In this document: one piece after another, positions 27,542 through 47,354 of the stretch | How positions within the stretch are numbered: the first letter of the stretch is position 1 | Layout: each line of letters opens with the position of its first letter | Assembly (NCBI RefSeq): GCF_010500215.1 | Contig: NZ_JAAGOY010000007.1 | Coordinates: 1,024,501-1,088,500, forward strand | DNA from: Aliiroseovarius sp. PrR006 | GTDB taxonomy: Bacteria > Pseudomonadota > Alphaproteobacteria > Rhodobacterales > Rhodobacteraceae | Length of the DNA: 64,000 nt | Reading direction: 5' to 3' | Position numbers and translations under genes: made by a program | Notes under the pieces: generated by a model | Database searches by the model: none | Seen by the model: the letters and a program-made list of their open reading frames with translations, nothing else | What the model was told of the DNA's origin: nothing

Positions 27542-27581
27542 GGCGGGCCTGCGATAAGATTGAGTTTTTCTACACCAAAAT

Positions 27582-27596
27582 AATAGCAATACTGAT
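27582..27596. promoter_or_regulatory. Candidate LysR operator between the GcvA-like regulator and glyA
   Basis: AATAGCAATACTGAT resembles the perfect inverted repeat ATTAGCAACACTAAT found before the LysR gene at 45382, with 12 of 15 identical bases. It lies in the middle of the 119-base divergent region. Confidence 0.45.
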
Positions 27597-27660
27597 TTGC
27601 GCGATCCAGCCCCTCTGCCTGATCCTGAATGCGACACCTCTTCAGGAAAGTGAGGACGCC

Positions 27661-28935: not shown

Positions 28936-28958
28936 CACACAACACCATTGACCAACGC

Positions 28959-28986
28959 AACCCCGCCCGCTGTTGCAGGCGGGGTT
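28959..28986 (+). terminator. Hairpin between glyA and the dehydrogenase gene
   Basis: AACCCCGCC (28959-28967) pairs perfectly with GGCGGGGTT (28978-28986) around a ten-base loop. No T-run follows, so it could be a weak terminator, an attenuator or an RNA-stabilising stem in the 154-base gap. Confidence 0.4.
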
Positions 28987-29089
28987 CTCGTGGCTTCCGA
29001 ACGGCATGGGCGTGTCGTTTTCAGAGAAGTCAGGATGCGGTTTGGCTCTACAGTTCTTCGTAAGAGGAATGCTGAACCGGAGGGATCCC

Positions 29090-33277: not shown

Positions 33278-34411
33278 TTAGGCGCTTAGATCGGTCAGGA
33301 TCCGGTCCATCATCGCGTCGCAGGCGGCCAGTTCGGACAGGTCTACGCCCTCGTCCGCTTTATGGCCGTCGCGCGCCATGTCGCCGGGTCCAATGACCAC
33401 CGTCGGGATGCCTTCAGCTGCGAAAAACCCTGCCTCGGTGCCGAAGGCGACCTTGGTGGTGTCGGGGGTATCTGCCATCCGACCTGCCCAGCTGACGACC
33501 GGATCGTCGGTGGGCGTGTCCAGCCCGAAATAGGCATTGGTCTGCGTGATCTCGACCGCGTTGGGATTTTCGAACGCGGCGCCGACGCGCTGGGCGATGT
33601 CGTTCAACGCGGACAGGATGTCCTCAGCCGGTGTTTGCACCAAATGCCGGAATTCCGTCTCTAACACAGCGGAATCCGGCACAATGTTCAACGCGCGGCC
33701 TCCGCTCATGCGGCCAACGTGGACGGTCGAGTAGGGGACGGAATACGCCGCGTCGGTCGCTCCGTCGGCTAGCCGATCTTGCAGCGCGCGGACTTCGTCG
33801 ATGAACTTGGCGGCAACATGCAAAGCGTTGGTGAAATCCGGTGCTAGCGCGCTGTGACCTGCCTCGCCGTGGCAAGTGACCTTCAGTGCCACCTTGCCCT
33901 TATGCCCCGTTGCCACCTGCATCGCGGTCGGCTCGCCCACGATCACTGCGCGGGGGCTGCCCAGAAGGGGCGCGAGCGTGGGCATCATCTGGCGAATGCC
34001 GACACAGCCGATTTCCTCGTCATAGGAAATCGAAAGGCTGAGCGGCTCAGACAGGGGCGCTTTGGCAGCACGTTCCGCCATCGCAAGGGCTGAGGCCAGG
34101 AAGCCCTTCATATCGGTCGTGCCCCGTCCGTGCAGACGATCCCCACGGCGGGTCAGGGCAAACGGGTCGCTAGACCAATCCTGCCCCTCGACCGGCACCA
34201 CATCCGTATGCGCCGACAGGCAAACACCGCCGACCTCGGGCCCGATCCGGGCAAACAGCCCGGCTTTCTGCCCGCAGGGCGACGGGATGCGCACCACGGC
34301 GAAGCCTGCGCTTTGCAGCAGGCCTTGTACATAGCGGATCAGCTCCAGATTGCTGTCTTTGCTGACGGTCGGAAAGGCGATCAGCCGGTCGAGGATGTCC
34401 AGAGTTCTCAT
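33278..34411 (-). CDS. ArgE/M20-family deacylase, annotated type acetylornithine deacetylase
   Basis: The 377-residue M20 metallohydrolase has the metal ligands in CLSAHTDVVPV, GRGTTDMKGF and YDEEIGCVG, and the dimerisation insert around CHGEAGHSALAPDF. M20 members remove acyl groups from amino acids. It is the last gene of a run of same-strand catabolic genes, 30 bases after the LysR gene. Arginine synthesis is not indicated by the neighbours, so removal of an N-acyl or N-formyl group from a pathway intermediate is plausible. Confidence 0.82.
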   Translation of the reverse strand: MRTLDILDRLIAFPTVSKDSNLELIRYVQGLLQSAGFAVVRIPSPCGQKAGLFARIGPEVGGVCLSAHTDVVPVEGQDWSSDPFALTRRGDRLHGRGTTDMKGFLASALAMAERAAKAPLSEPLSLSISYDEEIGCVGIRQMMPTLAPLLGSPRAVIVGEPTAMQVATGHKGKVALKVTCHGEAGHSALAPDFTNALHVAAKFIDEVRALQDRLADGATDAAYSVPYSTVHVGRMSGGRALNIVPDSAVLETEFRHLVQTPAEDILSALNDIAQRVGAAFENPNAVEITQTNAYFGLDTPTDDPVVSWAGRMADTPDTTKVAFGTEAGFFAAEGIPTVVIGPGDMARDGHKADEGVDLSELAACDAMMDRILTDLSA

Positions 34412-34441
34412 GCGGTCATTCGGTCCGATTTTGGGGTAAAT

Positions 34442-35380
34442 TTAGCGATTGGGCGGGATGGCATGCCCCGGATAATTCCAGTCGCGGATCACCGTTGCGG
34501 CGTGCTCGATAAAGGCGTTGACCGTCAGCACGTTGCGTGCGCCCTCGGGGATGATCAAGCCCAGCTGCATGGGGCGCTGTTCGCCTTTCAGCGGAATAAA
34601 CACCAGTCGCCGCCCATCCGGAGAAAGGTCGGAATAGGGTCTGATATTGGCGATTGCATAGCCAAACCCGTTCGCCACCATCGACCGCATCACTGCCATG
34701 TCCCGCGTGCGTTCGACAATGCGCGGCTTGCGGCCTGTCTGGTCAAAGAAGCTGAGGAAATAGTTACTGCTGAGCGGCAGGTCCAACAGGACCATCGGAT
34801 AGTCCAAAAGCTCGGCCACCTCGACCTCGTTCTGGCGGGCAAGGGGGTGGCCTTCGGGCACCATCGCGTAAGGGGGCAGGGACCGAAGCGGCACAAACTC
34901 AAGATCCGGCGGGATTTCAAGGTCATAGGACAGCGCCACGTCGATCTGCGCCCGGCGCAGCTGCTCGATCAGGCTTAGCTGATCGGTTTCAATCTGGCTG
35001 ACGCGGACATCCGGATACTTGAGCTCAAACTGTCGCCGGATCGCGGGCAAAAGCACCTGCGCAAAGCTGACAAGGCAGCCGATATTCAGCGGCCCCTGCA
35101 CATTGCCCGAGATGTCGCCCGCCAGCCGGTTCAGCGCGTCCGCTTCCTGTAGCACCAGCTTGGCCTGCGCCATGAACTGCCGTCCGGCCTGCGTCAGGCT
35201 CAGCCCATGCGCGTGTTTGCGGACGAAAAGCGGCAGGCCGAACTCGTCCTCCAACTGGGAAATCGCCGCCGAGATCGACGGCGACGATACATTCACCCGC
35301 GCGCTTGCCTGCGCGATCGAGCCTTCCTCGCCCACGGCGACGAAATATTCCAACTGACGAAGAGTAAACCGCAAAGCCAT
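34442..35380 (-). CDS. LysR-family transcriptional regulator
   Basis: The 312-residue product has an N-terminal LysR winged helix (LRQLEYFVAVGEEGSIAQASARVNVSSPSISAAISQLE) and a full effector domain. The fold resembles the CbbR/CynR-like group more than GcvA. It lies between the second Rieske gene and the deacylase, all on one strand, and is a plausible local activator for this catabolic segment. No obvious operator was found in the 71 bases upstream. Confidence 0.88.
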   Translation of the reverse strand: MALRFTLRQLEYFVAVGEEGSIAQASARVNVSSPSISAAISQLEDEFGLPLFVRKHAHGLSLTQAGRQFMAQAKLVLQEADALNRLAGDISGNVQGPLNIGCLVSFAQVLLPAIRRQFELKYPDVRVSQIETDQLSLIEQLRRAQIDVALSYDLEIPPDLEFVPLRSLPPYAMVPEGHPLARQNEVEVAELLDYPMVLLDLPLSSNYFLSFFDQTGRKPRIVERTRDMAVMRSMVANGFGYAIANIRPYSDLSPDGRRLVFIPLKGEQRPMQLGLIIPEGARNVLTVNAFIEHAATVIRDWNYPGHAIPPNR

Positions 35381-35451
35381 CGTGCGATTATGCCTTACGG
35401 TTCACATGGTTCAAGCCTGATACGTGGTCTATTGGGTCCAGCATCGCTTTC

Positions 35452-36564
35452 TTACTCGGCGGCCACGACATCCCTGTCTTGGCGCGCCAGCCAGATCTGG
35501 AAGTCACGGATCGTGCCTTCATAGTCATCGCTGGCCAATGGCCCTTCAAGCGCGTGCTCGGACCCCAAGGCCACCTGCATGCGTTCAAGTTTCTCGCGGT
35601 CCTCTCGGTTGACCTCTTCCCACAGTTTGATGCGCGCGGCGATGGTCGCATCGTCCAGATCCTCGCCATAGACGGACATGGTCCACTTCACGCGGATTTC
35701 ACCCGCGCTCAGTGGGAAGATCGACAGCGAAACCAACAGGCTGGCCGCTTGACTGGCCACTTGTGTCGGGAACTTGGCAAACAGGGTCGAGCGCATGCGC
35801 TCGTCATCGCTGAGCCCATCGGCGCCATGCCCGCGCGGCGGGATCGTGTCGGGATAATTCGCAGCGTAGGACGTGAAGTCGTACCCCGACAGCAATTTGC
35901 GCGCTAGACCCGTGGGCGTATAGCCGTGCAGCGTCTGCGGGTGCACCACCGACAGGTGGTAGCCTTCCATGAAGTTCTCGACGAGGCATTTCCAGTTGGT
36001 CTGCCAGTTCTCTTCGGCCACGTGCACAAGGCGGAACTTCTCAGTCTCGTAAGGGGCCAGCAATCCGTCCAGATCCGGGTGGTCAAACGGGGCCGCGTGG
36101 CAATCCAGATTGGCATAGATGAAGCCGTTCCACAGATGCACGTTATGCCCATGTAGGCGGCAGGACTTGCTGTCAAACCCGGCGTTTTCCATCCGCGCGG
36201 CGCGCAGAAGCGCACCGTCACGGCCATAGGCCCAAGCATGATAGGAACAGACAAAGCGCTTCACATTGCCCCGACCTTCGGCCAGTGGCATGCCGCGGTG
36301 GCGGCACACATTGGCCAGCACACGGATATTCCCATCATCGCCGCGCACGACGATCAACGGTTCGGACAAAAGCTGCACGGTGAAATAGTCGCCGGGCTCG
36401 GGGATTTCATCCGCGCGACCCAGACAATGCCAGCCATGACGCAGCACGGTGGCTGCCTCGTGGTCGAACTGCGCCTGACTTGTGTAGTATGCGCCCGGCA
36501 TTCCCATCGGGCGATCGGCCGGTAAGGCGGCCAAATCCTGAAGTTTAGTTCTTAGGTCACCCAT
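35452..36564 (-). CDS. Rieske non-heme iron oxygenase, alpha subunit (quaternary-amine type)
   Basis: The 370-residue protein has a Rieske cluster (CRHRG and CSYHAW, about residues 86-108) and a mononuclear iron site, VENFMEGYHLSVVHPQ. Where ring-hydroxylating dioxygenases have a bridging Asp, this has Glu (NFMEGYH), a feature of glycine betaine and carnitine monooxygenases. It has no fused reductase, and no reductase gene is close by. It is 38 bases downstream of the DUF1028 gene. N-demethylation or hydroxylation of a methylated amine is the inferred role. Confidence 0.88.
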   Translation of the reverse strand: MGDLRTKLQDLAALPADRPMGMPGAYYTSQAQFDHEAATVLRHGWHCLGRADEIPEPGDYFTVQLLSEPLIVVRGDDGNIRVLANVCRHRGMPLAEGRGNVKRFVCSYHAWAYGRDGALLRAARMENAGFDSKSCRLHGHNVHLWNGFIYANLDCHAAPFDHPDLDGLLAPYETEKFRLVHVAEENWQTNWKCLVENFMEGYHLSVVHPQTLHGYTPTGLARKLLSGYDFTSYAANYPDTIPPRGHGADGLSDDERMRSTLFAKFPTQVASQAASLLVSLSIFPLSAGEIRVKWTMSVYGEDLDDATIAARIKLWEEVNREDREKLERMQVALGSEHALEGPLASDDYEGTIRDFQIWLARQDRDVVAAE

Positions 36565-36602
36565 CTTACCCTCCGTTTCCTGTTGCGTTCTTGGGTTACT
36601 CG

Positions 36603-37277
36603 TTATTCGTCGCCGGGGACGCCGTAGGACGGCGCCTCGCGCGGGTCGAGCGCGCGTTGGACATAGGCGTCCAGCTGCGGCTTATAGATCTCCCACGCGG
36701 TGGCGATATTTTCGATCGGACAGTCCTCGGTCCAGTCGCAGCGCAGATCGGCGACGGGCCATGCGACTTTGTCGACCAGCATCATGCCTGCCGAATGGAT
36801 TGGGCCAGCTTCGCCGCCTGCCGCAAGACCGGCACGCATTGCGGCAATCAGCCGGTCGCCCAAATGGCCGGAACTTTCCAGAAATCCGTCAACGATGGCT
36901 TGCGGCACACCGTCATTCGCCAACAAGTTCCCGCCCGACGCCACATCCGGCCCCTGCGCCTGCGTCCAGATGCCAAGGCTGTTTGGCCCGGAATGGATTG
37001 CCGTGGCGCCATTCTTGTCGACCGCCAATACTTGCCGATATTCGATGAACCGGCCCAGATCTTTCACGCCCGCAATCGCTTCGGATGCGGACATGCCGCC
37101 CTGCATGAGATCCAGAGCCAGTGGTCCCAACATTGGATCGGTCACGTTCTGCGAGGCCACCGCACCAACACCCGCACGCGCATAGGCACAGCGTGCCGCC
37201 ACCGCAGGGGATGACGACGAGATTGCGATGCCGAACATGCCGGTCTCTGCGCAGCGGGCCACCAGTGAAAACGTCAT
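36603..37277 (-). CDS. DUF1028 family protein (Ntn-hydrolase-like)
   Basis: The 224-residue protein has the DUF1028 start TFSLVARCAETGMFGIAISSS and the segment ASQNVTDPMLGPLALDLMQ. The fold is thought to resemble Ntn hydrolases; the function is unknown. It sits between RidA and a Rieske oxygenase, so it may hydrolyse an amide or imine-derived intermediate of the same route. Confidence 0.8.
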   Translation of the reverse strand: MTFSLVARCAETGMFGIAISSSSPAVAARCAYARAGVGAVASQNVTDPMLGPLALDLMQGGMSASEAIAGVKDLGRFIEYRQVLAVDKNGATAIHSGPNSLGIWTQAQGPDVASGGNLLANDGVPQAIVDGFLESSGHLGDRLIAAMRAGLAAGGEAGPIHSAGMMLVDKVAWPVADLRCDWTEDCPIENIATAWEIYKPQLDAYVQRALDPREAPSYGVPGDE

Positions 37278-37286
37278 CCAAGCTTC

Positions 37287-37344
37287 CTTTTTCTTGTCCG
37301 AAATATCCTCGGGGGAGCGCGAGGGGGGCAGACAGCCCCCTCGC
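37287..37344 (-). repeat. Rhodobacterales-type intergenic repeat, copy 1
   Basis: On the minus strand the copy has a GC-rich hairpin, GCGAGGGGG / CCCCCTCGC (37344-37336 and 37327-37319), followed by CCCCCGAGGATATTTCGGAC and AAGAAAAAGG. The same arrangement, hairpin then CCCC-AGGATA-ATTT-G-CAAGAAAA, recurs at 63287-63343. It fills the gap between RidA and the DUF1028 gene and may act as an RNA processing or attenuation element. Confidence 0.5.
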
Positions 37345-37351
37345 TTACCGT

Positions 37352-37768
37352 TTAGTCAGGGATCACTGCCGTCCCGTCGATTTCAACCAGCCAATCAGGT
37401 CGCGCCAGCGCCTGCACCACCAGACCCGTCGAGACAGGATGCACACCCTTGATATATTCGCCCATGGTGCGATAGACGGCCTCGCGGTGGCGGACGTCGG
37501 TGATGTAGACGACCACCTTCACCAGATGCTCCATCTGGCCGCCGGCCTCTTCGATCAGCTGGCGGATGTTCTGCATCACCTTGTGGGTCTGTTCGACCGG
37601 ATCGTGGCTGTCGATATTGACGGCATCATCTAGGTTTTGCGGGCACTGGCCGCGCAGATAGACGGTTTTGCCGCCCTGCGTGACCACGGCCTGACACAGG
37701 TCGTTGTCCAGATTTTGCTCGGGGTAGGTGTCCGAGGTGTTGAACTTGCGAATACGGGTATGGGCCAT
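37352..37768 (-). CDS. RidA family protein
   Basis: The 138-residue protein is a YjgF/YER057c/UK114 fold with the core GQCPQNLDDAVNIDSHDPVE, an amphipathic helix around QMEHLVKVVVYITD, and the C-terminal VVQALARPDWLVEID, which carries the conserved arginine. RidA proteins hydrolyse reactive enamines and imines. It lies between the first Rieske oxygenase (21 bases upstream) and DUF1028. In an amine-degrading operon it probably clears an unstable imine product. Confidence 0.9.
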   Translation of the reverse strand: MAHTRIRKFNTSDTYPEQNLDNDLCQAVVTQGGKTVYLRGQCPQNLDDAVNIDSHDPVEQTHKVMQNIRQLIEEAGGQMEHLVKVVVYITDVRHREAVYRTMGEYIKGVHPVSTGLVVQALARPDWLVEIDGTAVIPD

Positions 37769-37789
37769 TGGGCGTCCCTTTATGTGGTG

Positions 37790-38935
37790 TCAGGTAGCGG
37801 CGCGTCCGGCCTCGATCCGGGCCATCAGATACTGCGCGAAGTCATAGTTGGGGCGTTCCAGATGGCTAAGATGCCCCGGCGCGGCGCGGTCGGACGACAG
37901 GCCTTTGAACACTTTTTCGGTGCAGCCGCGATCTTCGACGTTCACGTCATCCAAAAGCGCCTTCAGGTCGGCAAAGTTCTGGTCGATATCCGCGTCATCG
38001 GCGAAATCATTCGACATGCCGCCACCAAAACGGATCTGCACTTGGCCCGGCCCTTTGGGGTGCAGTGACAGGTACCAGAAATAGCCGGGCGTCAGGGTGA
38101 TCAGCAGGCTGGGATAGATCGCCAACAGATAGGTGGTGCGGCGTTCTTCACCCTTCAGACGGTCGTTCTTTGCGTGCGCCATCGCGATGAGCAGCTCTTC
38201 GTCCTTCAGAATGGTGTGATAGTTGAAGGCAGGCAGACCCGGCGGGCAGATCATATCCTCGAGCTTCGACAGACCGCCGATCGTGCCCGCATGACAAACC
38301 GGCAGGTGATAGCTTTCCATGAAGTTCTCGGCCAGCACCTTCCAGTTCGTGTCCCAGACGTGCTCTTCATAGAACGCCTCGGTGTAGTTGGTCATGTCAT
38401 AGCCTGCGATCATCTCTTCAACTTGGGAAAGCTGATCAGACACGTCGGGCGCGTCTTGGTTCAGGGTGACGAACACCCAACCCAGCCATTCCTGACATTT
38501 CACCTGAGGCAGCTGGTATTGGTCCTTGCAGAAGCCTTCGTTCAGGGTCATCGCCGGGGCGCCGCGCAGGCTGCCATCCAGATTGTACGTCCAGGCGTGA
38601 TAGGGGCAGACGATGGCGCGCGTCTTGCCGTTGCCGTGCAAAAGCGTCGACATGCGGTGCAGACAGACGTTGGACATTGCGCGCAGCTCGCCGTCCCGGT
38701 CGCGGATGACAAGAACCGGCTGCCCGGCAAGCTCGCAGGTGGTGTACTGGCCCGGCTCTTTCAGCGCGTCGGCCCGACCCACACAGAACCAATCCTTCGA
38801 GAAGATGTGCTCTAGCTCTTCGCTCAAGAACTCTTCGGACGTGTAGACCGACGGCGGCATGGCATGGGCCTGCTCGAACGGTTCGGCGGTGTTCTGGCGA
38901 AGTTCTTCTACGGGGTCGATGTGATCTTTTGCCAT
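37790..38935 (-). CDS. Rieske non-heme iron oxygenase, alpha subunit (quaternary-amine type)
   Basis: The 381-residue protein has CLHRMSTLLHGNGK and CPYHAWTY for the Rieske cluster (about residues 91-114) and AENFMESYHLPVCHAG for the catalytic iron, again with Glu at the bridging position. It is related to but clearly different from the Rieske protein at 35452, so the two may act on successive substrates or pair as subunits. ATG 38935 (MAKDHIDP) is used; an in-frame TTG at 39106 lies inside the FMO gene. No reductase partner is adjacent. Confidence 0.88.
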   Translation of the reverse strand: MAKDHIDPVEELRQNTAEPFEQAHAMPPSVYTSEEFLSEELEHIFSKDWFCVGRADALKEPGQYTTCELAGQPVLVIRDRDGELRAMSNVCLHRMSTLLHGNGKTRAIVCPYHAWTYNLDGSLRGAPAMTLNEGFCKDQYQLPQVKCQEWLGWVFVTLNQDAPDVSDQLSQVEEMIAGYDMTNYTEAFYEEHVWDTNWKVLAENFMESYHLPVCHAGTIGGLSKLEDMICPPGLPAFNYHTILKDEELLIAMAHAKNDRLKGEERRTTYLLAIYPSLLITLTPGYFWYLSLHPKGPGQVQIRFGGGMSNDFADDADIDQNFADLKALLDDVNVEDRGCTEKVFKGLSSDRAAPGHLSHLERPNYDFAQYLMARIEAGRAAT

Positions 38936-38957
38936 CTGGGTATCTCTCTCGTGTAAC

Positions 38958-40235
38958 TTATTCTGCAGCCGAGGACACAACAGCCGCCGGGCCCTCATAA
39001 TCCAGATAGGCGCGCTGGATTGCGATCTGATCTGCGACGTGTTTGGCGTCGTGCCAGACCCCCCACAGGAAGGTCGAGCCGCGGCGGGACTGCCACGGCA
39101 GGCCAAGGAAATAGACGTCGGGTTCGACCGATACGCCGCGCTGGTGGATCGGTGCGCCTTTCTCGTCGAAGGCGTCGAATTTCATCCAGTCGAAATCTTG
39201 CCGAAATCCGGTGGCCCAGATGATCGTGGTGATCCCTTCCTTGGCCAGATCAACGGTGCGGATCGGGTTGGTCAGGCAGTCGGGGTCGGGGAAGGCGATG
39301 CGGGCTTCGGGTTCTTCTGGCAGGGTCAGCCCGGTGCGGTCCAGATAGGCGTCGGCAGCGTCCAACATCTCGTTATAATTCGCGTCACCTGCGGCCACAT
39401 TTGTTTGTAGATCGTCGCGGAAGGTCAGGGTGTTATCAAGGAACCCGTCCGTCATGCCCAAAAGCGTCACGCCTTCGCCCGCCAAGCGGCGGAAATCCAT
39501 CGTATTGCCGCCATAGGCCCCACTGACCGAGATCGTCACATGTTCCGTCCCCGGATTCGGCGCGGCCATGTCCCACAGGCCCAAAACGCCCAGCCACCAG
39601 ACGAAATCGCGGCCACGATAGCGGCGCGGCGGGCGGTCATGCGGCCCGACCGACAGGAACACCTTGCGCCCCGCGCGGTTCAGTTCGTCCGCGATCTGGG
39701 CACCTGACGACCCGGCCCCAACCACCAGCACTGCCCCCTCGGCCAATTGCGCGGGGTTCTTGTAGTGGTAGGAGTGGATCTGAGTGACCTTGGCCGTTTC
39801 CGGCACGATGGGTGGGATCACCGGATGTTGGAAAGCGCCGGTCGCGGCGACGATCCGTTTGGCCTCGATCACACCGCCCGAGGTTTCGACCCGGAACCCG
39901 GCCTGATCCGGCAGGCGTTCGGCTTTCAGCACCTCAACCCCGGTGCGCACGGGGGCGTTCACCATCTGAGCGTATTCCTCCAGATAGTCCGCCACGCGGT
40001 CTTTCGTCACGAATTCATCCGGATCATTGCCCTTGAATTCAAGGCTGGGGAAGCGGTCGTGCCAGACGGGCCCGTTGGTCACCAGCGCGTCCCAGCGCGC
40101 GGTGCGCCATGCCTCGGCCACGCGGTTCTTTTCCAGAATCAGATGAGGCACGCCACTGTTTCCAAGGTGTTCGCTGAGGGCAATTCCGGCCTGTCCGGCG
40201 CCAACAACAAGCGTATCAATGGTCTCAACGGGCAT
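38958..40235 (-). CDS. FAD/NAD(P)-dependent monooxygenase-like protein
   Basis: The 425-residue protein has two dinucleotide sites, TLVVGAGQAGIALSEHLG near the start and VLVVGAGSSGAQIADEL at about residue 170, with ATGAFQHPVIP between them, the plan of flavin-containing monooxygenases and related reductases. It leads the FMO-Rieske-RidA-DUF1028-Rieske run; a 17-base inverted repeat lies 121 bases before its ATG. It might oxygenate nitrogen or carbon, or supply electrons to the Rieske proteins; I cannot tell which. Confidence 0.8.
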   Translation of the reverse strand: MPVETIDTLVVGAGQAGIALSEHLGNSGVPHLILEKNRVAEAWRTARWDALVTNGPVWHDRFPSLEFKGNDPDEFVTKDRVADYLEEYAQMVNAPVRTGVEVLKAERLPDQAGFRVETSGGVIEAKRIVAATGAFQHPVIPPIVPETAKVTQIHSYHYKNPAQLAEGAVLVVGAGSSGAQIADELNRAGRKVFLSVGPHDRPPRRYRGRDFVWWLGVLGLWDMAAPNPGTEHVTISVSGAYGGNTMDFRRLAGEGVTLLGMTDGFLDNTLTFRDDLQTNVAAGDANYNEMLDAADAYLDRTGLTLPEEPEARIAFPDPDCLTNPIRTVDLAKEGITTIIWATGFRQDFDWMKFDAFDEKGAPIHQRGVSVEPDVYFLGLPWQSRRGSTFLWGVWHDAKHVADQIAIQRAYLDYEGPAAVVSSAAE

Positions 40236-40355
40236 GTGTCTGGTCCTTGTGTCTGAATGTCGTCTCTACGTAATGGGAAGGGCGCGCCTTCTTCTGCGAT
40301 CGCCCTACATTGTCATTTTGGGACCAGCGGGAAAGAACGTTATGAGTCAGCGCTG

Positions 40356-40403
40356 ATTAGGTGTAGCCTAATGTTCATGCGCTCGGAAAAGGAAATACCT
40401 AAT
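40356..40403. promoter_or_regulatory. Candidate LysR operator upstream of the FMO-Rieske operon
   Basis: A perfect inverted repeat ATTAGG-TGTAG-CCTAAT occupies 40356-40372, and a further CCTAAT half-site lies at 40398-40403. The sequence fits the LysR T-N11-A rule and shares ATTAG...CTAAT with the site at 45353-45367 before the neighbouring LysR gene. It lies in the 244-base gap between the FMO start and the ALDH end, which otherwise holds only a terminator. Confidence 0.55.
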
Positions 40404-40445
40404 CATGCACTTGGAAGTGCAGGTTGCGCCCTAACCAAGCGCAAT

Positions 40446-40472
40446 AAAACGGGGCGTGACCACGCACGCCCC
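40446..40472 (-). terminator. Intrinsic terminator of the five-gene ring-opening operon
   Basis: On the minus strand GGGGCGTG / CACGCCCC (eight-base stem, 40472-40465 and 40458-40451) is followed by GTTTTATT. It lies eight bases past the ALDH stop. Confidence 0.75.
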
Positions 40473-40479
40473 GACCTGA

Positions 40480-41958
40480 TCAGCGCATCACAAAGGGATT
40501 GGCCATCGGTGTGTCCGAGGTGCTGATCCATGTGGTTTTCGTACGGGTGTAATCCAACACTGCATCAAGCCCTGCCTCGCGGCCATAGCCGGACTGGTTA
40601 TAGCCCCCGAATGGCGCAATCGGCGACACGGCCCGATAGGTGTTCACCCAGCAAATCCCCGCCTTCAGCCGCGACGACACGCGATGCGCGCGGGCGACGT
40701 TTTCGGTGAACACACCCGATCCCAGCCCGAAGGGCGTAGAATTGGCGATCGCGATGGCTTCCTCTTCCGTGTCGAAGGGGATCAGGGACATGACCGGCCC
40801 GAACATCTCGACTTTCAGAGTTTCGATGTCGGTGTTGGGGCATTCCACCAGCGTCGGCGCCATGTAGTTGCCGGGGCGGTCCAAGGGCGCGCCTCCGAAC
40901 CGAATGCGCGCGCCACCGTCACGGGCGGCCTGCAGAGTGGTTTCGATGGTTTGGACCTGCGCCTTGGTGCAGAGCGGGCCAATATGGGTGTCCGCAGACA
41001 GGGGATCGCCCACGACGACCGACTGCATTTTCTCTTCGATCCGTTGGGCGAGCGCGTCAAAGATCGAGCGATGCACCAGCCCGCGCGATCCCGCCACACA
41101 GCTTTGCCCCGAGGCCCCGAAGTTTCCGGCAATCAGCCCATTGGCCGCGCCGTCCAGATCGGCATCCTCGAACACCAGAATGGGGGACTTGCCGCCGAGT
41201 TCCAGCGAAGTCACCGCGAAGTTCTCGGCCGAGTTGCGTACCACGTGCCGTGCAGTTTCCGGGCCGCCGGTAAAGGCGATGCGGTCCACATCCGGGTGGC
41301 GGGTCAGGGGAATGGCGCAGTTTTCCGCGTCCCCGGTGATGACCGAGACGACACCGGGCGGGAAGCCTGCCGTCTCGACCAGGCGTGCGAATTCCAGCAT
41401 GGGCGCGGGCGCAATCTCGGACGCTTTCAGCACCACGGAACAGCCCGCCGCCAAGGCCGGACCCAGCTTGGTCGCGGTCAGGAACATCTGCGCGTTCCAC
41501 GGCACGATGGCGACCACTACGCCGATAGGCTCGCGCTTGGTGAACACATGCATGTCGGGCTTGTCGATGGGCAGAACCGCCCCTTCGATCTTGTCCGCCA
41601 GCCCCGCGTAGTAGCGGTAATAGTCGCCCACATAGGCCGATTGAGACGAGGTTTCGGCCAGCAGCTTGCCGCTGTCCGTCGTCTCGATCTGGCCAATGCG
41701 CTGGGCGTTCTCCTCGATCAACTCGGCAAGACGATACAGCAGCTTGCCCCGCTGGGTTTGCGTCATATCCCGCCATGCAGGATCGTTCAGTACCCGACGC
41801 CCGGCCGCAATGGCGCGGTCAACGTCAGAGAGTGCGGCGCAGGCAAAGGTCGCCCAATCTTCCCCCGTCGCCGGGTTTTGCGTGGCCATGACTTGCCCGT
41901 CGGCGCCGTCGACCCACTGACCGTCGATAAACAGCTGATAATGTGGTTTCTGTTCCAT
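40480..41958 (-). CDS. Aldehyde dehydrogenase family protein, TgnC-like by context
   Basis: The 492-residue protein has all the ALDH marks: the coenzyme region LELGGKSPILVFEDADLDGA (about residue 250), the catalytic cysteine in GASGQSCVAGSR (about residue 288) and the C-terminal PFGLGSGVFTEN. The ATG at 41958 follows GAGG. It is the last gene of the AA_synth-hydrolase-reductase-LLM-ALDH operon, eight bases after LLM. In the trigonelline pathway an ALDH oxidises the ring-opened lactol; that role is inferred from context only. Confidence 0.88.
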   Translation of the reverse strand: MEQKPHYQLFIDGQWVDGADGQVMATQNPATGEDWATFACAALSDVDRAIAAGRRVLNDPAWRDMTQTQRGKLLYRLAELIEENAQRIGQIETTDSGKLLAETSSQSAYVGDYYRYYAGLADKIEGAVLPIDKPDMHVFTKREPIGVVVAIVPWNAQMFLTATKLGPALAAGCSVVLKASEIAPAPMLEFARLVETAGFPPGVVSVITGDAENCAIPLTRHPDVDRIAFTGGPETARHVVRNSAENFAVTSLELGGKSPILVFEDADLDGAANGLIAGNFGASGQSCVAGSRGLVHRSIFDALAQRIEEKMQSVVVGDPLSADTHIGPLCTKAQVQTIETTLQAARDGGARIRFGGAPLDRPGNYMAPTLVECPNTDIETLKVEMFGPVMSLIPFDTEEEAIAIANSTPFGLGSGVFTENVARAHRVSSRLKAGICWVNTYRAVSPIAPFGGYNQSGYGREAGLDAVLDYTRTKTTWISTSDTPMANPFVMR

Positions 41959-41966
41959 CTGATACC

Positions 41967-43001
41967 TCACTGAAACGCTGGCATGACGTCGTCGATGAAC
42001 CGGGCCAGCGAGTCGCGCTTGCGTTCAAAGCTCATGCCGCTGTCGATCCAGAACGAGTATTCATCATAGCCCAGATCCTCGTAGCGTTTAATCTGGTCGA
42101 TCACTTCTTGCGCGGTGCCCATGGTCAGATCGCGCTTCAAGTTCTCAGGCGCCATCATTTTGTTCGCGGCCATTTCTTCCTCGGTCAGCTCCTGGATCAA
42201 ACCCTGGCTGACCGGGCGCTTGTTCTGGAACCACGCGCCGAAATAGCAATAGAACTTCGACAGTTCCTTCGCCGCCTGATCCACATCCGCCGCGTCTTTG
42301 CCGACATAGGTGTGATGCAGCAGCATGATCTTCGGGCGTTTGCCGTCATAGCCATCGCAGGCGTCATTGAAGCGCCCCATCAGGCTTTCGATTTCCTCGA
42401 TCCCCTGCCACAGCGGCGTTACCTGAATGTTGAATCCGTTCTGAACGCCAAACTCATGGCTATTCGGATCACGCGCGGCGATCCAGATCGGCGGACCGTC
42501 TTCCTGCACGGGCTTGGGCGCCGAGGTCGTGGCGGGGAACTGGAAGAACTCGCCTTCATGCGCGCAATCGCCTTTCCACAGCTGCGGGACCAGCGGGGCC
42601 ATCTCGCGCATGCGTTGGCCTGCTTCCCATGCATCCATGCCCGGCATCAGGCGTTCATATTCATAGGAATAGGCCCCGCGTGCGATGCCCAGTTCGATCC
42701 GCCCGTCGGTGATCAGGTCGGCCGAGGCAGCTTCACCCGCCAGCTTGATCGGGTGCCAGAAGGGCGCGATAACAGTGCCGGTGCCAAGGCGTACATGTTT
42801 GGTGTGGTGGGCCAGATTGACCAGTGTCAGAAATGGGTTGGGCGCGATGGTGAAATCCATCCCGTGGTGTTCCCCGGTCCAGACAGCCCGCATCTTGGCG
42901 TCATCGGCCATCTTGCACAGCTCGATAAATTCGTCATTCAGCTGCGTTTGTGACTGGCCGGGCGTCATGCGCTCCATATGGGCGAACAGCGAAAACTCCA
43001 T
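41967..43001 (-). CDS. Luciferase-like (LLM) flavin-dependent monooxygenase, TgnB-like
   Basis: The 344-residue protein is a bacterial luciferase-family TIM barrel with AVWTGEHHGMDFTIAPNPF (about residue 40), IAPFWHPIKLAGEAASADLI and IELGIARGAYSYEYERL. These segments resemble what I recall of the oxygenase component of trigonelline monooxygenase (TgnB); I could not run an alignment. The flavin reductase gene is three bases upstream, so together they form a two-component monooxygenase that would insert oxygen into an N-heterocycle or amine. Confidence 0.85.
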   Translation of the reverse strand: MEFSLFAHMERMTPGQSQTQLNDEFIELCKMADDAKMRAVWTGEHHGMDFTIAPNPFLTLVNLAHHTKHVRLGTGTVIAPFWHPIKLAGEAASADLITDGRIELGIARGAYSYEYERLMPGMDAWEAGQRMREMAPLVPQLWKGDCAHEGEFFQFPATTSAPKPVQEDGPPIWIAARDPNSHEFGVQNGFNIQVTPLWQGIEEIESLMGRFNDACDGYDGKRPKIMLLHHTYVGKDAADVDQAAKELSKFYCYFGAWFQNKRPVSQGLIQELTEEEMAANKMMAPENLKRDLTMGTAQEVIDQIKRYEDLGYDEYSFWIDSGMSFERKRDSLARFIDDVMPAFQ

Positions 43002-43004
43002 GGA

Positions 43005-43928
43005 TCAGGTCCTTTCTGACAGGGCATGCACATCGCCACGCTTTGCATCGCCCAGATAAAGGCCAAAGCTGCGGGTGCGGAACTCAAGGGCGTACCGCGC
43101 CATCATGTCGGCGATGGCGGGGGTGGTGTAGGTAAGGGTTGGAAGGTCAGCGACGGGGATGGCCTGAAGGGGCGCGTCCACTTGCACGACATCGCTGGAG
43201 CCCAGGAAATAGGCGAAATGCTGGCCACGGCTGGCGTCGTCATAGACGGAATAGGCCGGTCCGAGTTTTGCTTGGATCCCGCGCGCGGCCAGATCGTCCT
43301 GCAGCTCCTGCCGCATTTGCCCGCGATCCGAGCGTTCGATCTGCGGCAGGCGGAACCCATCTGGCGTCTGCTCCAGCAGAACGGTGTCACCGACCGAGAC
43401 AATCGCACCGTAGATCGCGCGTCCCTCGGTTTGCTCCAGCGCGGCGCGTTCCAGTCCAAGGCTGAAATACTGGCCGCCTGCATAGCCAAGGCCCGGGCCT
43501 TCGGACTGGGTAAAGTCAGTCACCTTGCCGATCAGGATCTGGTGGTCGCCTGCGGGCAGGGATTTCCACGTGGCGCAGGAAAACTGCGCAATCGCGCCGT
43601 CGATCAGAGGGATGCCGTTTGCGTCTTCGCGATGGCTGACTTGGGCAAACCGGTCGCCTTTGAAGCTGGCGAAGGTGTTGGACACGTCCTCTTGCCCCTC
43701 GGCCAGAATATTCACCGCGAAATGCATGCTGCTTGCGAAAGCATCGAAGGACGACAGGAACTTGCCGGGGCAGACCAGCAGCAGGGGCGGGTCCATCGAC
43801 ACCGACGAAAACGAGTTCGCCGTGAAGCCATAGGGCGTGCCGTCCGGTGTGCGGGTCGTGACCACGGTGACGCCGGTCATGAACCGGCCAAAGGCTTGGC
43901 GCAGGGCGCGGGGGTCAAACTCGGTCAT
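43005..43928 (-). CDS. Flavin reductase component with an extra C-terminal domain, TgnA-like
   Basis: The 307-residue protein has the FMN-binding split-barrel reductase domain in residues 1-165 (ALRQAFGRFMTGVTVVTTRT, YGFTANSFSSVSMDPPLLLV). It then carries about 140 additional residues (AIYGAIVSVGDTVLLEQTPDGFRLPQ onward) that have Nudix-like strand order but no Nudix box. It supplies reduced FMN to the LLM monooxygenase. The ATG at 43928 overlaps the hydrolase stop by four bases (ATGA); a longer in-frame reading reaching 44594 is only a shadow of the hydrolase gene. Confidence 0.85.
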   Translation of the reverse strand: MTEFDPRALRQAFGRFMTGVTVVTTRTPDGTPYGFTANSFSSVSMDPPLLLVCPGKFLSSFDAFASSMHFAVNILAEGQEDVSNTFASFKGDRFAQVSHREDANGIPLIDGAIAQFSCATWKSLPAGDHQILIGKVTDFTQSEGPGLGYAGGQYFSLGLERAALEQTEGRAIYGAIVSVGDTVLLEQTPDGFRLPQIERSDRGQMRQELQDDLAARGIQAKLGPAYSVYDDASRGQHFAYFLGSSDVVQVDAPLQAIPVADLPTLTYTTPAIADMMARYALEFRTRSFGLYLGDAKRGDVHALSERT

Positions 43929-44704
43929 GTCCAAATCTCCTTTGCGAAGTCCAGAAGGGCCGCGTTCACGTCTGCGGCATGGGTCATCGGCATCATGTGC
44001 GCGGCACCGTCGATGATCTGCGCGCGGCCTTGTGGAGCGAGCGCCGCCATGGTTTGCGACATGGCAGGGGTCGAGTTCGGCTCGTCCGCGCCGGTCATGA
44101 ACAGGGCGGGGCAGGGCAAGGCGGTCAGCGCATCCGTATCTGGTCCGTCTTGATGCGCGAAGATGGTGTAGGCGGCTTTGTACGCCGCCGGGTTCACATC
44201 GGTCAGCCATGCGTGGCAGGCCTCGCGCTCGGGCGAGGCATCCGTGCCAAACCACCGCTCTAACGTGCCCGAGGGATCGGCCATCCGGACCCCATCCAGA
44301 CTGGCGGCGCGGGCCTGCACCGCGTCTAAGGCATCGGGGCGACGGCGATAGATCGCGTTCAGGGCCGCGACGCCTTGCACCTTCCCCGGATAGCGGATCG
44401 CCATATCTAGCGCGATCATTGCGCCCATCGAATGCCCGACCACCATCACCGGCCCGTCGGTCCCGGCGGCGATGGCATCGGTGTAGTCGGTCAGATCCAA
44501 ATCGCCCGCGGGCAGGGCGCTGTCCCCATGCCCCGGCATGTCCACGGCCACCGCGCGATAGTGCGGCGACAGCGCGTCCAGCTGTGCCCCCCATGCCTCG
44601 GCCCGAAGGCCGACGCCGTGAATGAACAGGATGGTCGCCCCCTGCCCAGCGGTGATCGCGGACAGGGTGGCGTGATCAGACCGCGGCCGGGTTGTCCAAG
44701 TCAT
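43925..44704 (-). CDS. Alpha/beta hydrolase, TgnD-like by context
   Basis: The 259-residue protein has an oxyanion-hole HGVG, the nucleophile motif VGHSMGAM (about residue 93), an acid in TGADEPNSTP and the catalytic His in DGAAHMMPM, in the alpha/beta-hydrolase order. It follows AA_synth with a 29-base overlap and precedes the flavin reductase with a four-base overlap. In the trigonelline route a hydrolase cleaves the N-methylformamide intermediate; the order of genes supports that type of job here. Confidence 0.82.
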   Translation of the reverse strand: MTWTTRPRSDHATLSAITAGQGATILFIHGVGLRAEAWGAQLDALSPHYRAVAVDMPGHGDSALPAGDLDLTDYTDAIAAGTDGPVMVVGHSMGAMIALDMAIRYPGKVQGVAALNAIYRRRPDALDAVQARAASLDGVRMADPSGTLERWFGTDASPEREACHAWLTDVNPAAYKAAYTIFAHQDGPDTDALTALPCPALFMTGADEPNSTPAMSQTMAALAPQGRAQIIDGAAHMMPMTHAADVNAALLDFAKEIWT

Positions 44705-45275
44705 GTCCCAGATCCTTCAGGTCCTGATAGCGGTCTCCAATGCGGTGATGGGGACGCCCGCTGGTGGCTGCACCCAGAACAACGACGATTTCGTCATCGC
44801 GCGGCGCATCCGGGATGGCGAACTGCAAGGTCAGATAGTGCGAGCGGCGCCCGGCGTCGTTCTTGTCCATCAACGGCACCATGATCGGCGCGTTCGCCGG
44901 ACCACGGGTGTTGGTGAACGCCAGATAGGATTTCGCGCCCACGGCTTCACGATAGAAATTGCCGAAACGTAGGGTGTGGATCAGGCCCGAGGCATGCTCG
45001 ACCTCGCCATTCAGACCGACGACAGCGGCCTTGCCATAGGCTTCGATCGCGTCACCGCTTCCGGCCAGTGCGATCATCCGTTCGGTCATCATTTCGCCCA
45101 GCACCGGGCCAAAGGCGTGTATCTCGGGTTTCAGGTCTTCAACGAAGCGTCCGGCCCACGGGTTCTTGACCACGGCGGCCACGGCGAACATGCGCCACGG
45201 GGTATCGGCGGGCTTGAACCCTTCGATCAGAACCTCTTCGTCATAGGTTACAATTTTGCGGATTTCGGGCGTCAT
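44676..45275 (-). CDS. AA_synth (DUF1185) family protein
   Basis: The 199-residue protein matches the amino-acid-synthesis/DUF1185 family: EVLIEGFKPADTPWRMFAVA, VVKNPWAGRFVEDL and KAAVVGLNGEVEHASGLIHT. Despite the family name, its biochemical role is unknown. It heads the ring-opening operon and is divergent from a LysR gene. ATG 45275 (MTPEIRK) follows AGGAG; longer in-frame starts reach 45329. Confidence 0.75.
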   Translation of the reverse strand: MTPEIRKIVTYDEEVLIEGFKPADTPWRMFAVAAVVKNPWAGRFVEDLKPEIHAFGPVLGEMMTERMIALAGSGDAIEAYGKAAVVGLNGEVEHASGLIHTLRFGNFYREAVGAKSYLAFTNTRGPANAPIMVPLMDKNDAGRRSHYLTLQFAIPDAPRDDEIVVVLGAATSGRPHHRIGDRYQDLKDLGHDLDNPAAV

Positions 45276-45352
45276 CTTGGTCTCCTGTTCGCTTGGCGAC
45301 ATCATCGGAACACCCTGATATTTTGACAAATGATAGATTTACTGGCTTAGGT

Positions 45353-45367
45353 ATTAGCAACACTAAT
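45353..45367. promoter_or_regulatory. Candidate LysR operator between the AA_synth operon and its LysR gene
   Basis: ATTAGCAACACTAAT is a perfect inverted repeat (ATTAG-N5-CTAAT) with the T-N11-A pattern of LysR sites, 14 bases before the LysR start and 77 bases before the divergent operon start. It could serve autoregulation and operon control together. Confidence 0.6.
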
Positions 45368-45381
45368 GGCTGGATTGACCC

Positions 45382-46233
45382 ATGAAGAAATCGCTTCCCC
45401 CGCTGACATGGTTTCGCGCGTTCGAGGCCGCCGCTCGGCACCTAAGTTTCACTGCTGCAGGTGACGAGATTGGTCTGACCCAATCCGCCGTCAGCCAGCA
45501 AGTGAAAGCATTGGAATCCCGGCTTCGCGTGTCGCTGTTCACCCGACATGCGCGCGGGTTATCGCTGACCGATGACGGGCGCAAATTGCTGCCGCAAGTG
45601 GGCGCGGCGCTTGGCACACTTGCCGCTGCGACCGAGGTATTTGACGCGGGCCCCACACAGAACCTTCTGACCATTGCGGCCTCGGTCAGTGTGGCCCAAT
45701 GGATCATTTCCCCGCATCTGCACGACTTCACGCGGACGCATCCGAATGTCCGCGTGCGCTTCCTGAGCGCGATCTGGCCGGATGAATTCAATGCCTCGCG
45801 CGCAGATGTCGAGATCCGCTTTGGGTCCGCCAAACAGGTCGGCAAGAATGCCGAGCTGCTGACTCCAGACGGGTTGGTCGCGATGAAGTCGCCGGCCCTG
45901 AGCGGCACCCTGCAAGACCTGCCGCTGATCGAGGCCGTCGGCACCTCGGGCGGGTGGAAAAGCTGGGCCGCGCAGATCGGTGGCCCGTGCGAACCCACGC
46001 TGTTTGCAGACTCTTTCGGCATGGCTCTGAATCTTACGGCCGAAGGAAATGGCGTGGCGTTGGTCAGCGAGATTTTGATCCAGAATGCGCTGGAAACCGG
46101 ACGGTTGGAACGTGCTCACCCGGCCTCGATCCCCAGCAACGAAGGGTATTATTTGTCGGTAAATGACCAAAACCCAGCCGCCACTGATTTCCGCGTGTGG
46201 TTGCTGGATTTGTTAGACAGAACAGATGGATAA
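45382..46233 (+). CDS. LysR-family regulator of the ring-opening operon, GcvA type
   Basis: The 283-residue product has the LysR helix-turn-helix (LTWFRAFEAAARHLSFTAAGDEIGLTQSAVSQQVKALE) of the GcvA subgroup and an effector-binding domain. It is divergent from the five-gene operon, which is the usual layout for a LysR activator and its target; the perfect inverted repeat sits between them. It converges with the symporter gene, with a three-base gap. Confidence 0.9.
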   Translation: MKKSLPPLTWFRAFEAAARHLSFTAAGDEIGLTQSAVSQQVKALESRLRVSLFTRHARGLSLTDDGRKLLPQVGAALGTLAAATEVFDAGPTQNLLTIAASVSVAQWIISPHLHDFTRTHPNVRVRFLSAIWPDEFNASRADVEIRFGSAKQVGKNAELLTPDGLVAMKSPALSGTLQDLPLIEAVGTSGGWKSWAAQIGGPCEPTLFADSFGMALNLTAEGNGVALVSEILIQNALETGRLERAHPASIPSNEGYYLSVNDQNPAATDFRVWLLDLLDRTDG

Positions 46234-46236
46234 AGC

Positions 46237-47166
46237 TTACGTGTAGGATGGCCGAATAGCGCCCCCGCGGGCCAGTACTCCGGCCAGCGCCAACCCAGAA
46301 ACCGCGTGCCAGATGCCCCAGAAGGCTGCGACCACGGCCATGCCGCCAAGCCCGCTGAAAAAGCCGAAGATCAGGATCAGCCCAAGGCCCGAGTTCTGAA
46401 TGCCCGTCTCGATCATGATGGCGCGGCGGTCAAAGGCGGACAGCCCGGCCAGCGTGGCGATGGCGAACCCTGCGCCCAACGCAAGCGCATTGTGGGCGAT
46501 GACAAGGGTGGCGACGGCCTCGGCATATTCCAAGAACAGCGCCCAGTTCGCGGCCAGCGCCAGCACGACGAAGGCGATGAAAATTCCCATCGACAGATAT
46601 TGCAACGGAGTGCGCAGTCGGCGTGTGATGTCTGGCCGTTTGGCGTTCAGCATCACGCCGAGGCACAGCGGTAGCACCAGCATGACGCCCACGGTGATCG
46701 CCACTGATACAGGATCAATCGAGGTTTGCTGCAAAATCGCGCGCGTCGGCTCGTACAGGCTGCCCCAGAACGCGATGTTCAGCGGCGTCAGGAGGATTGC
46801 AAAGATCGTCGCAAACGCTGTCATCGACACCGAAAGCGCAGCGTTCCCGCCCGCCCGATGGGTGATGAAATTCGAGATGTTGCCCCCCGGGCAAGCCGCC
46901 ACCAGCATCAACCCCAACGCAATCGACGGACGTGGATTGGTAGCCAGAACCAGACAGAATGTCAGCGCGGGCAGCGCGAGGAACTGCGATGCCAAACCGG
47001 TCAGCAGGGGCTTGGGCTCGCGGGCCAGCTTCTTGAAATCGCTTGGTTTCAGGTCAATCGCGATCGAGAACATGACGATCGCAAGCACGGCGTTCAGGAT
47101 CTGCAAACTTGTGGGCGAAAAGTTCAGCATCACCTCGTCAATGCCAGCTTGTGCTGGTGTACTCAT
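46237..47166 (-). CDS. Bile acid:sodium symporter family (BASS) transporter
   Basis: The 309-residue protein has about nine to ten transmembrane helices and the family motifs LVAACPGGNISNFITHRAGGNAALSVS and LGLILIFGFFSGLGG. BASS members carry small organic acids or sulfonates with sodium. ATG 47166 (MSTPAQAG) is used instead of an upstream in-frame start that lacks a membrane-protein profile. It could import the substrate of the neighbouring catabolic genes, but no direct evidence links it. Confidence 0.82.
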   Translation of the reverse strand: MSTPAQAGIDEVMLNFSPTSLQILNAVLAIVMFSIAIDLKPSDFKKLAREPKPLLTGLASQFLALPALTFCLVLATNPRPSIALGLMLVAACPGGNISNFITHRAGGNAALSVSMTAFATIFAILLTPLNIAFWGSLYEPTRAILQQTSIDPVSVAITVGVMLVLPLCLGVMLNAKRPDITRRLRTPLQYLSMGIFIAFVVLALAANWALFLEYAEAVATLVIAHNALALGAGFAIATLAGLSAFDRRAIMIETGIQNSGLGLILIFGFFSGLGGMAVVAAFWGIWHAVSGLALAGVLARGGAIRPSYT

Positions 47167-47354
47167 ACTGCTTCCCCCGTCCCGTGTATGGCGTCTCGGC
47201 CTGTAACCGATTGGTGACACGTCAAGTTTTGTACACCGACTGCCCTCTGGGCAAGCGATAAACGAATTGACCGCGGGGTCTGCGGGATTGCAGTCTTTGA
47301 ACTCCACTTCCAAGCGCCGAGCCGATTTTGCCCCGACAGAAGACTGAAAACCCT

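Follow-up and report, generated by a model that had tools for sequence, protein, structure and literature searches.

A Probable Trigonelline-Type (tgn) Ring-Opening Operon Beside a LysR-Family Regulator Gene in an Aliiroseovarius-Like Roseobacter

In a window of 64,000 nucleotides from Aliiroseovarius sp. PrR006 (NCBI RefSeq assembly GCF_010500215.1; positions 1,024,501 to 1,088,500 of contig NZ_JAAGOY010000007.1, here C7, in a genome of 3.2 Mb), five tightly packed genes are located on the minus strand at 40480-45275, where neighbors overlap or sit a few bases apart. These genes probably form a ring-opening operon of the trigonelline (tgn) type in a roseobacter resembling Aliiroseovarius, with trigonelline, a betaine related to vitamin B3, as the most likely substrate. 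The gene set itself, by which certain soil bacteria open trigonelline, is of a known kind, since the tgn pathway for trigonelline was reportedly described for Acinetobacter by Perchat et al. in 2018. The new part is the branch to which the operon belongs, which is marked by a divergent LysR-family regulator gene and is called LysR-type here. Homology, gene order, the place in phylogenetic trees, the conservation of an operator-like repeat and a mosaic genome were observed, and from these we infer the reactions, the substrate and the regulation.

Gene Content and Relation to Known Tgn Systems

The first gene of the operon (44676..45275) codes for a TgnF-like protein of the AA_synth/DUF1185 family (PF06684; Pfam AA_synth, 246.5 bits). 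Its start was placed at the ATG at 45275, whereas the list of open reading frames begins at a TTG at 45329 instead. It is followed by a TgnD-like alpha/beta hydrolase (43925..44704; Abhydrolase_6, 90.8 bits), a TgnA-like flavin reductase of 309 amino acids with a C-terminal extension (43005..43934; Flavin_Reduct, 134.4 bits), a TgnB-like luciferase-like monooxygenase (LLM), the putative ring-opening oxygenase (41967..43001; Bac_luciferase, 174.1 bits), and, as the last gene, a TgnC-like aldehyde dehydrogenase (ALDH; 40480..41970; Aldedh, 509 bits). All five Pfam scores are far above the cut-offs. On the plus strand, a GcvA-like regulator of the LysR family, assigned by domain and family profile matches, is encoded at 45382..46233. 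The original prediction had described a five-gene operon with a divergent LysR gene and a terminator, and this description is borne out: all five reading frames are open, the Pfam families agree, and the LysR gene as well as a hairpin just beyond the ALDH stop are present.

The same prediction had matched the operon to the trigonelline gene set, and the same five genes in the order F-D-A-B-C are indeed found in A. baylyi DSM 14961 (locus L022) and Acinetobacter sp. PK01 (L014). The identities to A. baylyi are 67% for AA_synth, 64–65% for the LLM, 55% for the ALDH, 41% for the reductase and 37% for the hydrolase. The LLM relative of PK01 was found by tblastn of plasmids and is annotated as tgnB by NCBI; at this locus NCBI names tgnA, tgnB and tgnC, and the AA_synth and hydrolase genes lie ahead of them as in the window. 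The Acinetobacter loci differ from the window in having GntR and DUF1330 genes, where the window has LysR, and linked genes for an NCS1 permease, a succinate semialdehyde dehydrogenase (SSADH) and a sarcosine-oxidase-like protein, which the window operon lacks. Although the comparison of the original prediction with TgnA, TgnB, TgnC and TgnD stands, it had put the DUF1185 protein outside the known set. According to an excerpt of PMC7913881, however, the DUF1185 protein of A. baylyi is TgnF and stimulates the TgnE-dependent oxidation of succinate semialdehyde; therefore, the AA_synth gene of the window belongs to the known set as well. The phrase "unrecognised substrate" used in that prediction was too strong.

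The operon on pSymA of Sinorhizobium meliloti (L002, L010) also shows the identical order, with an LLM of 67% identity. It differs in a GntR gene upstream as well as NIPSNAP and ABC transporter genes downstream. This operon sits between nodL/noeB and nifT, and its reductase is nearly identical to the PDB chain 3rh7. Boivin et al. are said to have located trc genes near nod and nif. Judging by its number, SMa0789 could be the GntR gene adjoining the pSymA operon. In the sections of the literature consulted, SMa0789 is listed among the regulators restricted to the symbiotic network (PMC11387232), and S. meliloti lacking pSymA fails to grow with trigonelline (PMC4207669).

In the PDB, residues 5–307 of the 309 of the window reductase match 3rh7 (E 1.1e-59), and residues 12–134 of the hydrolase give a partial match to 3kxp, an alpha-(N-acetylaminomethylene)succinic acid hydrolase (E 2.2e-13). 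Sequence searches of the PDB with the LLM returned no structure named TgnB.

Since LLMs, flavin reductases, hydrolases and ALDHs are common in operons for sulfonates, pyrimidines or aminopolycarboxylates, the operon might merely resemble tgn and contain an oxygenase of one of these kinds. This is extremely improbable. The window LLM stays below the cut-off of every NCBIfam model listed (25 of 26), with scores of 33 bits for NtaA/DmoA (cut-off 280) and 42 bits for SfnG (cut-off 383); no RutA or SsuD model was among these 25 of 26. Furthermore, the full gene order is shared with the named tgn loci. A comparison of the LLM with TgnB had been proposed in the original prediction, which named a kinship with RutA, SsuD or nitrilotriacetate oxygenases as the contrary outcome. 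Neither the curated models nor the tree gave such a kinship. A tree built from 101 LLM proteins unites the window protein and 33 others in one branch (SH-aLRT 100, the mosaic locus L170 described below included), which lies inside a clade with A. baylyi and PK01, the TgnB clade. This clade is called clade A here, and a second group, clade B, falls outside of it.

LysR-Type and GntR-Type Operons

Neighborhoods were compared in 158 sources, which are the window and 157 loci. Leaving L009 (no LLM match) and the special loci L006, L007, L012, L016 and L170 out of the counts, 33 LysR-type and 119 GntR-type loci are obtained. Here, L154, L157 and L160 count as LysR-type because of their tree position, although no LysR gene was seen within the stretch fetched, and the 119 GntR-type loci hold duplicate genomes, at least L079/L171, L077/L180, L082/L183, L089/L185 and L076/L201. 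The exact order AA_synth, hydrolase, reductase, LLM and ALDH, whose recurrence the original prediction had proposed to follow across genomes, is present in 21 of the 33 LysR-type and 99 of the 119 GntR-type loci. Further loci of both types keep the operon order with extra copies or with one gene undetected. With this recurrence of the exact order, the arrangement goes beyond chance.

The LysR type is coherent across its genes. The LysR gene is found beside 30 of the 33 loci (window counted), with 44–93% identity in the others, and full matches to the window range from 72 to 97% for the LLM, 72 to 97% for the ALDH and 79 to 99% for AA_synth; the partial match of L157 has 49% over 160 residues. 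GntR-type proteins are more distant, with 60–72% for the LLM, 52–59% for the ALDH and about 40% for hydrolase and reductase. The GntR-type operons of other roseobacters (Leisingera L003, Ruegeria L017, Aliiroseovarius L077 and L082) share gene order and host group with the window and have LLMs of about 70% identity, but they carry GntR, and their ALDHs (55–57%) as well as their hydrolases and reductases (about 40%) are less similar. Beside the 119 GntR-type loci, a GntR gene is present in 111 cases, DUF1330 in 90, SSADH in 42, an NCS1 permease in 38 and an ABC transporter in 32. These SSADH, permease and transporter genes agree with a pathway that yields succinate semialdehyde from a polar substrate. 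The GntR regulator, which is replaced by LysR at the window, is a companion gene and not a pathway enzyme.

From these comparisons the LysR-type branch is a distinct-looking variant with its own regulator and a conserved operator-like repeat. A description of this variant was not found in the open-licence papers retrieved. LysR-type loci were found solely in genomes of the family of the window, Rhodobacteraceae in the GTDB sense, and the search elsewhere was partial: the wider genome scan was ranked on an Acinetobacter protein (best 80 of 555), and another scan used a clade B query. Beyond the family, 350 plasmid records contain a related ALDH, and all of these ALDHs stay below 60%.

Within the family, a survey of 394 genomes, sampled nearly one per genus and with at most five candidates scored per genome, revealed a clade A (tgn-type) LLM in 65 of them. 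An LLM of the LysR kind is present in 29 (the mosaic genome counted) and one of the GntR kind in 36, of which 13 were typed by identity alone; no genome has both. About 2.7 co-occurrences would be expected by chance, so that the zero is not significant by itself. Among the 21 genomes of the genus, 6 carry the LysR type, 5 the GntR type and none both. A LysR-type operon together with a complete GntR-type operon was not found in any genome searched.

In the ALDH tree, all GntR-type sequences share one branch (99.8), and the LysR type falls outside it. For the LLM, the approximately unbiased (AU) test gave p 0.68 for the LysR type grouping with the roseobacter GntR type and p 0.46 for its position outside all GntR-type sequences. 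A mosaic origin of the window operon, with an LLM from roseobacters and an ALDH from an older line, looked likely in the trees; it is not claimed, as the AU test of the LLM is undecided.

Two further observations concern the distribution of the gene set. Caballeronia pedi (L045) and C. arvi (L046) contain two head-to-head five-gene operons, whose LLMs have 66% and 55% identity to that of the window; here, a third form occurs alongside the canonical type. The plasmid records CP060162.1 (Acinetobacter venetianus, H183) and NZ_CP083450.1 (Pantoea eucrina, H182) both give a 100% match to one LLM query, reflecting either a recent transfer or a mislabelled record.

Operator-Like Repeat and Loss of the Reductase

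The gap between the LysR and AA_synth genes was usable in 28 of the 33 LysR-type loci (L149, L154, L157, L160 and L164 were dropped) and measures 102–120 bp in all of them. In the window, this gap contains the operator-like inverted repeat ATTAGTGTTGCTAAT on the minus strand (45353..45367), which follows the pattern ATTAG-N5-CTAAT. With at most one mismatch, the pattern is present in 26 of the 28 gaps, 13 of them exact, versus 3 of 560 shuffled gaps. CTAAT-like sites are a known target of GcvA. The operon is probably switched by the divergent LysR protein, which would act at this repeat.

Facing the operon, a promoter-like site TTGTCA-17-GATGAT is located at 45301..45329 (minus strand, 9 of 12 matches). 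Since the scan of 40100-45500 found one such site with 1.3 expected by chance, weight can be given solely to the repeated occurrence of its first hexamer across loci, with TTTGTC present in 26 and TTTGTCA in 22 of the 28 gaps. At the other end, the terminator-like hairpin (40450..40473, minus strand) has nine pairs, eight of them G-C, followed by a T-rich tail. The count of terminator-like sites is uninformative (3 versus 3.9 expected in shuffles), and among the three sites this hairpin has the longest stem and is well placed.

Ten of the 33 LysR-type operons (L146, L147, L149, L153, L155, L162, L164, L165, L166 and L169) cleanly lack the reductase gene, leaving 10–66 bp between hydrolase and LLM versus about 930 normally. 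A reductase match is present in 117 of the 119 GntR-type loci. The losses are scattered over a quick LLM tree, requiring at least eight changes, where some forks are weak. An oxygenase that uses any cellular flavin reductase would explain these scattered losses. The LysR type may be a functionally distinct Rhodobacteraceae branch, characterized either by such an oxygenase or by an inducer of its own together with a shifted pyridinium substrate, a possibility that we consider doubtful.

Conserved Residues and a Natural Mosaic

An alignment of 152 LLM sequences of both types contains 126 positions that are at least 98% invariant and only four that are type-specific (H38R, F113Y, C190F and H280N), which would argue for the same chemistry in both types. 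In the hydrolase, S92 and H236 are common to both.

The most telling point for a shared chemistry is the genome G153. At its locus L170 (G153:C50:187501-207500), a canonical order of GntR, AA_synth, hydrolase and ALDH genes is present without reductase and LLM, where only 137 bp separate the matches of hydrolase and ALDH. About 4 kb from these GntR-type genes lie a LysR gene, a short reductase gene and an LLM gene of the LysR type. With 5 of its 9 candidates scored, this genome showed no further clade A LLM, and a LysR-type ALDH was likewise not found. Its LysR-type oxygenase would therefore have to pass its product to GntR-type enzymes, and this pairing argues that both types perform the same chemistry.

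Homarine, Clade B and the Choice of Substrate

The original prediction had named homarine next to trigonelline. Homarine (N-methylpicolinate) is the commoner marine isomer, and its opening by a LysR-type operon would lead to N-methylglutamate or 2-oxoglutarate and not to succinate semialdehyde. The operon for homarine use is reportedly named homABCDER. The hosts are marine, the regulator and the operator-like repeat are distinct, type-specific residues occur in all five proteins, and no SSADH gene is linked to the window operon, all of which would be in line with homarine. Furthermore, a pathway for homarine has been published (Ferrer-Gonzalez et al., 2026, as cited in an excerpt of PMC13390433). 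The pairing in G153 and the small number of type-specific LLM positions, on the other hand, speak against homarine. In the parts of PMC8269262 consulted, Heal et al. judge TgnA/TgnB unlikely to act on homarine and expect steric hindrance; as stated in an excerpt of the published correction (PMC10134881), picolinic acid was present as a contaminant in their homarine standard.

A contrast is provided by Ruegeria pomeroyi DSS-3 (G472), which quickly takes up the homarine of diatom medium; an excerpt of PMC12817926 puts its mean lifetime there at 2 h or less. No clade A LLM was detected in its genome at E 1e-10, and the best match, a clade B protein, has 39% identity and is the only LLM above 30% found in DSS-3. 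Homarine use without clade A weakens homarine as the substrate of the window operon. As a main interpretation homarine was set aside as unsupported, and we regard it as quite unlikely.

The clade B operon of DSS-3 (L238, contig C1, at about 2.861 Mb) is composed of LLM, ALDH, RidA, hydrolase, reductase and AA_synth genes with ABC transporter genes nearby. Together with its relatives (L006, L223), it thus resembles the window operon in its LLM, ALDH, hydrolase, reductase and AA_synth families; it differs in an LLM of only 35–42% identity to that of the window, in gene order and in the presence of RidA. A 73% relative of the clade B LLM of DSS-3 was seen in an alphaproteobacterium with a single contig of 2.8 Mb (G683).

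Another N-substituted pyridine-3-carboxylate or amide, for example N-methylnicotinamide or an algal derivative of trigonelline, could enter the same series of reactions. The changes D208E, R235A and N239P near the active site of the hydrolase and those at positions 38 and 190 of the LLM would fit such a substrate. It appears improbable in view of the mosaic genome, the overall conservation of the LLM and the separate occurrence of the two types in the genomes searched.

Several observations weigh against trigonelline as the substrate. Hydrolase (37%) and reductase (41%) are distant from those of A. baylyi, and the ALDH has 34 type-specific positions. Hydrolase position 208, which aligns with the triad Asp of solved relatives, is Glu in the LysR type and Asp in the GntR type, although the neighboring D207 could serve as triad acid, and R235A and N239P lie beside the catalytic His. 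Taken together, the distance of these enzymes, the changes in the triad region and the ALDH positions imply that the substrate may have shifted, and the type-specific changes in hydrolase and ALDH argue for caution regarding the same chemistry. In addition, the GntR, DUF1330, permease and SSADH genes are absent beside the window operon, though they are frequent beside GntR-type operons. A close relative of the large sarcosine-oxidase-like protein of PK01 was not found in the window genome. As for the mosaic, G153 is rated 100% complete but 4% contaminated, the locus may be decaying, and position 38 of its LLM is still the His of the GntR type. Finally, the same parts of PMC8269262 report that DSS-3 grows on trigonelline, more effectively than on homarine, so that trigonelline use needs no clade A operon.

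Genes for downstream steps were also searched for in the window genome. An SSADH homologue with 55% identity to the PK01 gene is present, unlinked to the operon (contig C7, 283983-285398). Two gene sets are sarcosine oxidases by NCBIfam, with large subunits of 36% identity to the PK01 protein; N-methylglutamate dehydrogenase, considered as their identity with respect to methylamine use, was not assignable.

Proposed Pathway

The reaction steps can be proposed by analogy with Acinetobacter, with some details taken from the NCBI product name of tgnC. TgnA would supply reduced flavin, with which TgnB and O2 would convert the N-methylpyridinium ring of trigonelline into an N-methylformamido-methylene hydroxybutyrolactone. 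TgnC would oxidize this compound to a succinate derivative, which TgnD would hydrolyze to succinate semialdehyde, methylamine, formate and CO2. TgnF presumably assists the oxidation of succinate semialdehyde.

According to the parts of PMC8269262 consulted, trigonelline had, to the knowledge of Heal et al. (2021), previously been undetected in marine samples, where they found 1 to 300 pM. The two alternative clade A forms are separable by regulator and ALDH and could provide marker genes for metagenomes. Markers for homarine and trigonelline use must be separated by clade, because every family name of the clade A operons recurs in those of clade B. Moreover, the LysR form gains a candidate operator, and G153 offers a natural mosaic for judging the interchangeability of both forms.

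Neighboring Genes

No transporter common to the LysR-type loci was seen. In the window, a gene for an SBF-type transporter (bile acid:sodium symporter family; 46237-47313) adjoins the LysR gene and is a possible uptake gene; it has 88–97% identity in four loci of the genus (L175–L178) and 73% in L145.

At 27508-31519 on the plus strand, an SHMT gene precedes a gene for a DAO-GcvT fusion protein similar in kind to dimethylglycine/sarcosine dehydrogenases, representing a set for one-carbon metabolism and N-methyl demethylation nearby.

Past the terminator, a second co-directional gene set is present on the minus strand (33278-40235), which probably belongs to another betaine or N-methyl pathway. 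It codes for an FMO-like oxidoreductase (38958-40235), a GbcA-like Rieske oxygenase (37790 to about 38935), RidA (37352-37768), a DUF1028 protein (36603-37277), a second Rieske oxygenase (35452-36564), a LysR regulator of its own (34442-35380) and an ArgE-like M20 deacetylase (33278-34411). Parts of this set adjoin the GntR-type operons of Leisingera (L003) and Ruegeria (L094).

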